Notes under the pieces: generated by a model | The model's database searches: none | What the model saw: only the letters and a program-made list of their open reading frames with translations | Told to the model about the DNA's origin: nothing | Position numbers and translations under genes: made by a program | NCBI GenBank assembly: GCA_027307235.1 | Contig: DAHUXH010000012.1 | Coordinates: 62,001 to 126,000 of the forward strand | Origin: Vulcanimicrobiota bacterium | GTDB lineage: Bacteria > Vulcanimicrobiota > Vulcanimicrobiia > Vulcanimicrobiales > Vulcanimicrobiaceae | Direction: 5' to 3' | DNA length: 64,000 nt | Part shown: in pieces, positions 57,484 to 61,318 of the stretch | How the letters are laid out: the number at the start of each line of letters is the position of its first letter | Numbering within the stretch: position 1 is the stretch's first letter

Positions 57484-59565
57484 TCACCTCGCGAGCGAGA
57501 GTGTTGCGTGCCCGTTCGCGGCTTGATCCGAAAGCGAACCGGCGAAACGTTCGATTTCCGCGACGGCGAACGTAGCGGAAAGTTCGCTCAGGCGTTGTGA
57601 CTGCTGGCGCACTTGTTCGGCGCTTGCAGTCATCTGCTGCATCTGCGCGGCCAGTTCCGCCGTGGATGAAGAGACATCGTCGGCAGTCTGTGACTGCTGT
57701 TGCGCGGAAGCCGCGACGGGCACGATCGCTGCGGTGACGGAACCGGTCGTCTCCTGCATTTGACTGGTTGCCGCGGCGTTTTCCTCGACGATCGCCGACA
57801 CGTTGGTGAGATTCTGTGTCAGCAATGAACTCGATCCTCGCATCTGTTCGGCACGCACGGCCATCTCTTCGGCTGCCTCCGTCGTGCCGGCGACGGCGTC
57901 TGCGACCGCGTGCAAGGCCGAAACAGCGTGTTCGGCACGGCTCATGCCCTGTTCCATTGCCGTCGTCGATGCACGCATCGACGACGCGACACTCTGCGTC
58001 TCGGTCTGAATGCCGCCGAGAATACGGCCGATTTCTTTGGTGGAGGTGGTCGCGCGTTCGGCAAGCTTGCGAATCTCGTCGGCGACCACGGCAAAACCGC
58101 GACCTTGCTCTCCCGCGCGCGCAGCCTCGATGGCAGCATTGAGCGCGAGCAGGTTGGTTTGGTCTGCGATCTCGTCAATCGCGCTCACGATCTGACCGAC
58201 CGCACCGGACCGCTCTTCGAGCGATTGCATCGCGTTCTCGGTGCTCACAGAATGCTCGCGGAGTCCGCGCATGGTTTCGACCGTCATCCGTACCGCGTCG
58301 CTCCCGGTCTGCGCCTGCGCGGCGGCGTCGCGGGCGGCGCTCGCCAATGAATCGCCTAACTGAGCGAGAGCTGCGATCTGCTGGTTAAGTTCGCCCACCG
58401 CATCCGCGGCCGACTGAACGGAACCTGCCTGCTCGGCTGCACCTTTGGCGATCTGCGTCGCGGCGTATTGCAGTTCTTCCACAGCGCTGCTTGCCGTGCG
58501 AAGCTGGTCGGAATGGTCTCGCGCGTCGCGCGCTACCCCCTCGATGTTCATCGAGATGACGCGGATGGCCGTATCGGCTTCTTCCGATGACGCGCTGACC
58601 TGGACGCCCGCAGCCGCAAGCTCACCGGCGCTGCCCTGAACGTTGCGGATGACATCACTCAGCCGCATACGAGTGCGTTCAAACTCCATGGACATGTCGC
58701 CGAGCGCGGTGCCGAGTTCGTTGTAGCTTTGCGCAAGATCCGCGATTTCGTCTCCCGCGTCATCGTCAAGCGCGGCGCGGCGCGTTTGAAACGCATGCGT
58801 CAGGTCACCGGCCGCGAGCGAACGCAGCGCGGCGTTGAGCGCGGCGACGTCTTCTTGAACGACGTCGTTGAGCGCGGAGCGCACGCTTCCGAGGCGTCGC
58901 GTGATGCGCCGCCCGAACAACACCGTGATCAGCACCGACAGGACAACTGCAAAAACAAATGCGATTGCACCGATGATTGACATTGCCTGAAACGTCGCAG
59001 CGAAGCGATCCTTTGCCGCAGCAGTGTTGGCTTGCGCGAGCGACACCAGCTTGAGCGCGAGTTCGGCCTCGTGCGGGATGTCGACGGCATTTGCCGTGAG
59101 GGATGCATTGAGCGCCTGCGTTATTCCCGATGAGTGAATGCCGCGAAAGGCAAGCAATGCGTTCACCGGGTTTTTACGCGTTTGCACCAGTTGAAATTCA
59201 TTTCGTTGATCGATCGTCGCGGAGAGCGGCTGAAGTTCCGACACGACCTGCGCGATCGCGGCATTCCCGGCACCACTATTCTTGATCGCCTCGATGTCGG
59301 CGACGAGCGCGGCTTGCGCGCGCTCGTGCGCTTGGAAATCCGCCGCTTGGCCCTTGAGGACGACGTTTCTGATCGCAAAGCGTGTGCTGACGCGCTGGAA
59401 TACAATATCGTGCGCGGTGAGCTCGATGCCGTTGGCGGCGAGAATCGCCGCGTTGGATGCGGCCAATTGACGAAACCCGATGAAGCCGACGAGGGCAAGC
59501 GCAACGATCAGCAGCGTCGGCACGGCAAAGGCAAGCGCGAGTTGCGCTCCGACCCGAAACTTCAT
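57484..59565 (-). CDS. Methyl-accepting chemotaxis protein
   Basis: A 693-residue membrane chemoreceptor. N-terminal helix ([20 protein letters not shown]), helical periplasmic sensor (residues about 35-185), second helix ([20 protein letters not shown]), a HAMP-like segment ([19 protein letters not shown]), then a long coiled coil whose tip has [20 protein letters not shown] and [20 protein letters not shown], the CheA/CheW hairpin. The ligand is unknown. No other che or flagellar genes lie in the window. Confidence 0.95.
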
Positions 59566-59676
59566 TTTCCGAGTGATCTCCGATTCACGTTCATCGAAAA
59601 GCAGGCACCCGATCGTAAGCGGCTGCCTTCCCTATAAATCGTCAAAAACGCGGAAATAATGATGCCTTATTCTTTC

Positions 59677-59730
59677 CTTAACGTAACCTTAATAATCGAA
59701 TCTTAAGGGTCACGCTTGCAGTGTTATAAT
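59677..59730 (+). promoter_or_regulatory. Activator-type promoter for the 48-residue gene
   Basis: An extended -10 (TGTTATAAT, with TATAAT at 59725-59730) is perfect, but its -35 position reads CTTAAG, a weak match. Upstream, CTTAAC (59677) and CTTAAT (59688) repeat at an 11-base interval, the spacing of PhoB/OmpR-type regulator sites. A third CTTAAG sits over the -35. So activation by a response regulator is plausible. Confidence 0.6.
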
Positions 59731-59736
59731 AGCCGC

Positions 59737-59817
59737 CAATCGGCGCTCCCAAGGGGTGGGGCGAGTCGCCTGCGAGCTGAATCCTGTGGGCACAAGCCCC
59801 CGAGGGAAGGGCGTGTC
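59737..59817 (+). ncRNA. Possible structured 5' leader
   Basis: About 80 transcribed bases precede the 48-residue gene. Possible pairings include GGCG with CGCC and GGG(CACAAG)CCC, and GTGTCA (59813-59818) with TGACAC (59828-59833), which would cover the start codon. It does not match any riboswitch consensus I know. The start of transcription is inferred from the -10. Confidence 0.35.
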
Positions 59818-59964
59818 ATGAGGATACTGACACAGATACTGCGCTTCTTCTCGCGCCTGGGCAGCCGGGCGCCGGCCGCGCACAACGACAACCTGCGTGC
59901 CAACGAATTTGACGACCAAAGCGGTCCCGTGATCTCCCCTTGGCTCAGCACCCTCGAACGCTAG
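59818..59964 (+). CDS. 48-residue microprotein
   Basis: A short protein starting MRILTQILRFFSRLGSRAPA. The first 20 residues form a basic amphipathic helix (ILTQILRFFSRLG) that could sit on a membrane; the rest is polar. AGGGAAGGG lies six bases before the ATG, a strong ribosome site. Expression is supported by a perfect extended -10 and leader. Its stop overlaps that of the convergent GreA-like gene (CTAG). Function unknown; a regulator or membrane-stress peptide is possible. Confidence 0.6.
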   Translation: MRILTQILRFFSRLGSRAPAAHNDNLRANEFDDQSGPVISPWLSTLER

Positions 59965-60407
59965 GAAGACTGATACTCGATCGACTCGATGGTGAGCTTG
60001 ACCGCGCCGGCGGGTCGTTGCACGATGACGGTTTCACCCACGCGGTGACCGAGTAATGCCTGCGCGAACGGCGATATGAAGCTGATGCTCCCGCTCGCCG
60101 GTTCTGCTTCGTCTTCGCCGACGATGGTGACGCGCATCGGTGTACCGTCCAGGGTGCGTGCGGCAACAGTCGCGCCGAAGGCGACGACGTCGCGCGCTTG
60201 CGACGCGGTATCGATCTCGATTGCGCCCGCGACACGCCCTTCGTAGTAGCGTATTTCGCGCTGGTTATCGCTGGCGCGTGCAGCCGCAAGCGCCTCGCGC
60301 AGCAGCCGCAGGCCGCGCGGTGTCACGTAGTTCGGATGCTCGCTGACCGGGCGGTCGATCTCCGCCTCAGGTCGATCGTCGTCGTCTTTGACGAAAGCAC
60401 GGCTCAC
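59961..60407 (-). CDS. GreA/GreB-like elongation factor domain protein
   Basis: A 148-residue protein. An acidic N-terminal stretch (SRAFVKDDDDRPEAEIDRPV) leads to HPNYVTPRGLRLLREALAAA and the C-terminal FKBP-like Gre domain: GATVAARTLDGTPMRVTIVG, ISPFAQALLGHRVGETVIVQ. The N-terminal coiled coil is shorter than in GreA (158 residues), so it belongs to the GreA/GreB-related group that binds RNA polymerase but may not stimulate cleavage. GTG start at 60407 with GGAGG seven bases before. Confidence 0.85.
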   Translation of the reverse strand: MSRAFVKDDDDRPEAEIDRPVSEHPNYVTPRGLRLLREALAAARASDNQREIRYYEGRVAGAIEIDTASQARDVVAFGATVAARTLDGTPMRVTIVGEDEAEPASGSISFISPFAQALLGHRVGETVIVQRPAGAVKLTIESIEYQSS

Positions 60408-60472
60408 GGACGGTCCTCCATCTTCCGGACTACGACGGCGGGAGCGCAAAGCGCTCTTTCGAAGAGGCAATC

Positions 60473-61243: not shown

Positions 61244-61261
61244 CGCTGCACACGTAAAAAA

Positions 61262-61303
61262 AGAAAGAGCCCGTGACGCATATGTGCGTCACGGGCTCTT
61301 TCT
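61262..61303. terminator. Bidirectional terminator
   Basis: A perfect 19-bp stem (61262-61280 with 61285-61303) and TATG loop. The minus strand has TTTTTTT after the stem, the plus strand TTTCTATTT. It lies between convergent genes and can end both transcripts. Confidence 0.92.
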
Positions 61304-61318
61304 ATTTGTCGCCGAGCG

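Follow-up and report, generated by a model that had tools for sequence, protein, structure and literature searches.

The locus described here raises the question of what a lone open reading frame of 48 codons does in the genome of a Candidatus Eremiobacterota (2.41 Mb, the host being called a soil bacterium), and of which signal would turn it on. A preliminary description took the region for a small-protein system that is induced by stress and has sites like those of PhoB/OmpR; its promoter and its protein are well supported by the data presented below, whereas the part concerning a leader RNA is not. We hypothesize, with a probability of roughly 60%, that a single gene, induced by phosphate starvation, makes up the locus and that its product is a paralogue of a microprotein of magnesium homeostasis. 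The features concerned, numbered along the window (i.e. the whole stretch of 64,000 nucleotides that was analysed), are as follows:

59665–59695, + strand: predicted Pho box, an 8-bp unit occurring three times in tandem with linkers of 3 bp, CTTATTCT-ttc-CTTAACGT-aac-CTTAATAA (genome-wide pattern search, position weight matrix)
59701–59706, + strand: off-register fourth TCTTAA, occupying the −35 position (sequence)
59722–59730, + strand: extended −10 element TGTTATAAT (sequence)
about 59737, + strand: predicted transcription start (inferred)
59737–59817, + strand: 5′ leader of 81 nt; special structure, riboswitch and conservation unsupported (folding, Rfam and homologue searches)
59801–59810, + strand: ribosome-binding site CGAGGGAAGG, with the GA-rich Shine-Dalgarno GAGGGAAGG about 7 nt 5′ of the ATG (sequence)
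59818–59964, + strand: microprotein of 48 amino acids, MRILTQILRFFSRLGSRAPAAHNDNLRANEFDDQSGPVISPWLSTLER, almost certainly an M-box-independent member of an M-box-associated family (HMM)
59961–60413, − strand: convergent gene with a GreA/GreB C-terminal domain, greA-like (PF01272, E 1.7e-23)
57484–59565, − strand: divergent methyl-accepting chemotaxis gene, the rival target of the repeats (MCPsignal, E 2.6e-38)

The 3′ end of the greA-like gene overlaps the stop codon of the microprotein gene, which is monocistronic, with no co-directional gene after it. A longer reading frame started by TTG (59716, 82 amino acids) was rejected, since its start precedes the predicted transcription start and that part is not conserved. 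Further along the window, a strong and symmetrical terminator-like hairpin (61253–61310, AAAGAAAGAGCCCGTGACGCA...TGCGTCACGGGCTCTTTCT) separates the AIM24 gene from a BNR-repeat-like gene convergent with it.

At the −35 position, CTTAAG agrees with TTGACA in 2 of 6 positions, and a sigma-70 scan displays neither a conventional promoter nor a usable −35 partner at 59722–59730. This confirms the initial view of an extended −10 element, TGTTATAAT, without a proper −35. The direct repeats reported at 11-base spacing are likewise present, in three copies rather than two: CCTTA recurs at 59665, 59676 and 59687 with an exact period of 11 bp, and TCTTAA is added at 59701. Within the 64 kb, the repeat pattern has 2 overlapping matches, compared with 0.27 in shuffled sequences. 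The genome-wide motif work consisted of pattern searches, in which the perfect triple (0 mismatches) is a single occurrence in the 2.41-Mb genome. An inverted-repeat search further detects an imperfect palindrome (CCTTAATAATC/GAATCTTAAGG) at 59687–59708, the right arm of which contains the TCTTAA at 59701.

The next informative matches to the triple lie upstream of pstS (TIGR00975, E 3e-97) and of a gene for a PF04185 phosphoesterase. A pattern of canonical Pho geometry yields 5 matches in the same genome, mapping to pstS, to the window (twice), to another PF04185 phosphoesterase and to one unknown; the neighbour genes of pattern matches were assessed by eye. Only the best pattern matches are informative, because the pattern with 3 mismatches is no commoner than its reversed control (10 versus 24 matches in this genome). 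Among 28 pstS upstream regions, 27 from relatives and one from the genome itself, 7 contain pairs resembling YCTTA-N6-YCTTA, while shuffled sequences average 0.08 and never exceed 1. With a position weight matrix built from the pstS-promoter sites of 6 relatives, the genome under study being left out, the top site of the window is that at 59676, which scores 20.5 bits; the best unrelated site in the 64 kb reaches 12.5 bits. In this genome pstS itself has a degenerate box, scoring 13.7 and 12.3 bits. Elsewhere in this genome, a Pho-box-like site (G000:C18:158280, L150) precedes a short, secreted-looking Ala/Pro-rich open reading frame.

The array in the window, with its three 8-bp CTTA-type repeats and 3-bp linkers, resembles the cyanobacterial SphR Pho box, in which CTTAACCT is repeated three or more times with linkers of 3 bp (PMC1906773), as in CTTAATTC-tat-CTTAATTT-cga-CTTAATCA of Synechocystis pstS2 (PMC1906773). 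It belongs to another phylum, however, is predicted from sequence, and its position relative to the −10 is non-canonical for the clade. Regarding the marks of a PhoB promoter, direct repeats of 8 bp (at least two, with 3-bp linkers) that match the pstS box of the clade are found, and a box ending about 10–11 nt before the −10 is not: about 32 nt separate the end of the triple from it, versus about 11 nt for the pstS boxes of relatives. The triple is displaced upstream by about two helical turns, and nothing but the off-register TCTTAA lies in the gap. A PhoB-like regulator and an adjoining PAS histidine kinase are encoded at C12:245339; no regulator of the genome passes the TIGR02154 PhoB cut-off, this one scoring below it. 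Taken together, there is strong sequence evidence that a PhoB-type regulator would bind the repeats, and Pho control of the microprotein gene appears quite probable. Two related copies in genomes G029 and G060 (the further M-box-free copies, see below) have no Pho box, and evidence for such control is hence confined to a single genome.

Alternatively, the repeats may bind another regulator of the OmpR family or serve the divergent chemotaxis gene, in which case the signal would be other than phosphate. Several full-length OmpR/PhoB-type regulators are encoded in the genome, the repeats are located 100–140 bp upstream of the chemotaxis gene (start 59565), the geometry is unlike that of pstS, and an imperfect palindrome covers part of the region. 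However, the repeat unit has the sequence found in the clade's pstS boxes and in phosphoesterase promoters of this very genome, and the extended −10 is directed towards the microprotein. Overall, we regard this alternative as unlikely and phosphate as the probable signal.

The microprotein matches no entry of Pfam or NCBIfam. A single-sequence search of relatives retrieves an open reading frame with 57% identity in G029 (E 3.2e-7), and a paralogue is found in the own genome (E 1.4e-5). Profile searches extend this to 28 copies in 25 of 149 genomes of the phylum, all of them in the family-level clade of the genome studied here; in a contig scan with the family pattern, the named records with relatives are Candidatus Eremiobacterota MAGs and one titled 'bacterium'. 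Members display an amphipathic N-terminal helix followed by H[ND]DxLRANQF...SPW. In the alignment M1, H22, L26, R27 and A28 are invariant, D24 is nearly so, and an S-[PFY]-W tail is usual. The window copy carries the H[ND]DxLRA core after an N-terminal hydrophobic/amphipathic helix, and an HMM built from the M-box-associated copies alone detects it with E 2.4e-13 (next open reading frame of the window: E 0.9); judged by profile and motif, its membership in the family is hardly in doubt. AlphaFold predicts a helix at residues 2–15 and coil for the remainder (mean pLDDT 69). The hydrophobic moment of the helix RILTQILRFFSR is 0.99, a value reached by 0.1% of permutations, and the short amphipathic protein of the preliminary description is thereby borne out.

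Close pairs with measurable dS display dN/dS values of 0.05–0.45, and the M-box-free pair from G029 and G060, two genomes of one genus, a value of 0.05. Comparison of the window copy with all family members over 9 core codons yields pS 0.88 and pN 0.17. These estimates show purifying selection on the relatives of the window copy. The copy itself has no syntenic orthologue, its conservation being judged through the family members; in G019, the greA-like and AIM24 genes adjoin without the microprotein. In a tree of 27 members, the M-box-free copies are grouped weakly (69/93), on long branches.

An M-box Mg2+ riboswitch (RF00380) is located upstream of 24 of the 28 copies, with bit scores of 113–139, and the own-genome paralogue is such an M-box-associated copy. 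Downstream of the microprotein, the examined operons carry an Nramp-family gene (PF01566), and genes for MgtC (PF02308) and for outer-membrane-protein-like products are often nearby. The family is thus linked to Mg2+ genes. Three copies are M-box-free, namely the window copy, G029:C21 and G060:C129. The window region returns no Rfam match, M-box included, and where an NRAMP gene would follow, the convergent greA-like gene is found instead. The M-box-free copy of G060 directly precedes an M-box operon holding a second copy; both this M-box-free copy (L065) and that of G029 (L063) follow a gene for NADH:flavin oxidoreductase. In G029, the microprotein is succeeded by a gene for a protein of 623 amino acids, which has no Pfam match and whose relatives sit in M-box operons of other genomes.

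The place of 24 copies between M-box and transporter operon is typical of leader peptides, and another tiny open reading frame (MDDGP...) is found there too. The microproteins might accordingly be cis-acting leader peptides, the translation of which regulates the downstream transporter while the product is inert. The window copy, however, cannot be a cis leader peptide because no gene lies downstream on its strand, and therefore the protein itself is the product; given a monocistronic gene that converges on the greA-like one, this protein must act in trans. The dN/dS range given above, M-box-free copies included, and the C-terminal position of the conserved core speak against inert products as well, leaving this explanation improbable. 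The window copy may be seen as a natural experiment: it has neither riboswitch nor downstream gene, and so it is more than a leader peptide.

A further claim concerned a structured leader covering the start codon. The leader is GC-rich and the start codon can be covered by a GTGTCA/TGACAC hairpin, which would suit a cis-regulatory RNA (riboswitch or thermometer) hiding the start site. However, folding of an 83-nt stretch gives −32.6 kcal/mol versus −33.3 kcal/mol for dinucleotide shuffles (z +0.21), leader plus start of the reading frame give z −0.34 against shuffles, and the Shine-Dalgarno is no more hidden than in shuffled leaders (19% unpaired versus 15% ± 7%). No Rfam match is obtained even at E ≤ 10, in agreement with the earlier remark that the leader corresponds to no known riboswitch; 60 relatives contain no similar DNA of note, and the leaders of the other M-box-free copies differ from this one. 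A structured leader is not supported, and a regulatory RNA at this place is highly improbable. The strong ribosome site described initially is present: about 7 nt separate a GA-rich Shine-Dalgarno (GAGGGAAGG) from the ATG. Conservation, to which the preliminary description had looked in leader and protein, is seen for the protein and not for the leader.

That the microprotein would be a membrane-active type I toxin, as its shortness and its strongly amphipathic cationic helix might suggest, is scarcely credible, given a C-terminal core that is conserved and polar, a consistent Mg2+ operon context, and no antitoxin RNA identified.

For a one-gene phosphate-starvation unit, we propose the following mechanism. 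Upon phosphate limitation, a PhoB-type response regulator would bind the three CTTA repeats upstream of the extended −10 promoter without −35. The mRNA from about 59737 would be translated into the 48-residue protein, the leader having no special role. The amphipathic N-terminal helix may then associate with the membrane on its inner face and display the conserved HNDxLRAN...SPW tail, which could act in trans on the Mg2+ uptake system encoded with the relatives, most likely the NRAMP-type transporter. In consequence, Mg2+ transport would be adjusted upon a shortage of phosphate instead of magnesium, both target and direction of this adjustment being putative. A role of the microprotein in Mg2+ homeostasis appears reasonably likely; direct binding to the transporter is more doubtful, the target being named through guilt by association only. 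Cross-talk between Mg2+ and phosphate has a precedent, since MgtC of Salmonella activates PhoR and phosphate uptake (PMC6658541). Our data suggest that phosphate stress may talk to magnesium homeostasis via a tiny protein, and offer a candidate by which the economies of phosphate and magnesium would be linked.

Small membrane proteins such as MgtS of E. coli are part of the Mg2+ response. The microprotein is similar to MgtS as a small protein tied to Mg2+ homeostasis, but its helix is amphipathic and not transmembrane. In M. tuberculosis, an M-box controls the conserved small protein Rv1805A, encoded first in the pe20-mgtC operon, and its homologue Rv0115A has no M-box and an own promoter with a PhoP site (PMC12810186). 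Rv1805A, Rv1535A and Rv0115A are described as restricted to mycobacteria and as conserved at the N-terminus and at Pro7 (PMC12810186). The likeness, a striking one, is in the arrangement, i.e. a small protein in an M-box Mg2+ operon with mgtC, and an M-box-free homologue under the site of a two-component regulator. In contrast to the mycobacterial group, the family described here is conserved in its C-terminal part (HNDxLRAN) and accompanies an NRAMP-type transporter, and the M-box-free window copy has a Pho-box-like promoter. At somewhat less than even odds, we propose that a riboswitch-linked microprotein was duplicated out of its Mg2+ switch and rewired to the phosphate regulon, coupling phosphate starvation to Mg2+ transport; the same move, made independently in mycobacteria, would be a recurrent design. 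That the relatives stand behind an M-box and the window copy has escaped it is visible only with comparative data, and together with the mycobacterial case the role of riboswitch-linked microproteins becomes directly testable.

The family is previously undescribed, a new one tied to Mg2+ riboswitches and NRAMP-type transporters in a little-studied phylum; a literature search retrieved no paper joining Eremiobacterota and riboswitches. M-box control of Nramp-related Mg2+ transporters (NrmT) is established in Clostridium (PMC4072509). As for NrmT (PMC4072509), the M-box is followed here by a PF01566 transporter gene, assigned by PF01566 alone; unlike NrmT, a microprotein and usually an MDDGP mini-ORF stand between switch and transporter. 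This mini-ORF follows the M-box terminator in 22 of 24 loci examined (L055:899–991 and 21 others) and has a strong Shine-Dalgarno (AAAGGGGGTGATG); it begins with MDDGP[SG] (variants MDDGS, MDGGS and MDDVP) and its tail is variable. The early acidic residues and proline are reminiscent of EPDP, a motif of MgtL, the Mg2+-sensing leader peptide (PMC11282234), so that the mini-ORF may add to the riboswitch, in series, another Mg2+ sensor that works through translation. In the genome studied here, the second M-box (L062, G000:C10:161882–162061) is followed immediately by an Nramp gene, and both mini-ORF and microprotein are missing. In G062 (L042:1790–2010), the middle of the M-box is interrupted or replaced, its ends remaining around a foreign-looking insert; despite the disrupted M-box, this locus keeps mini-ORF, microprotein and transporter.
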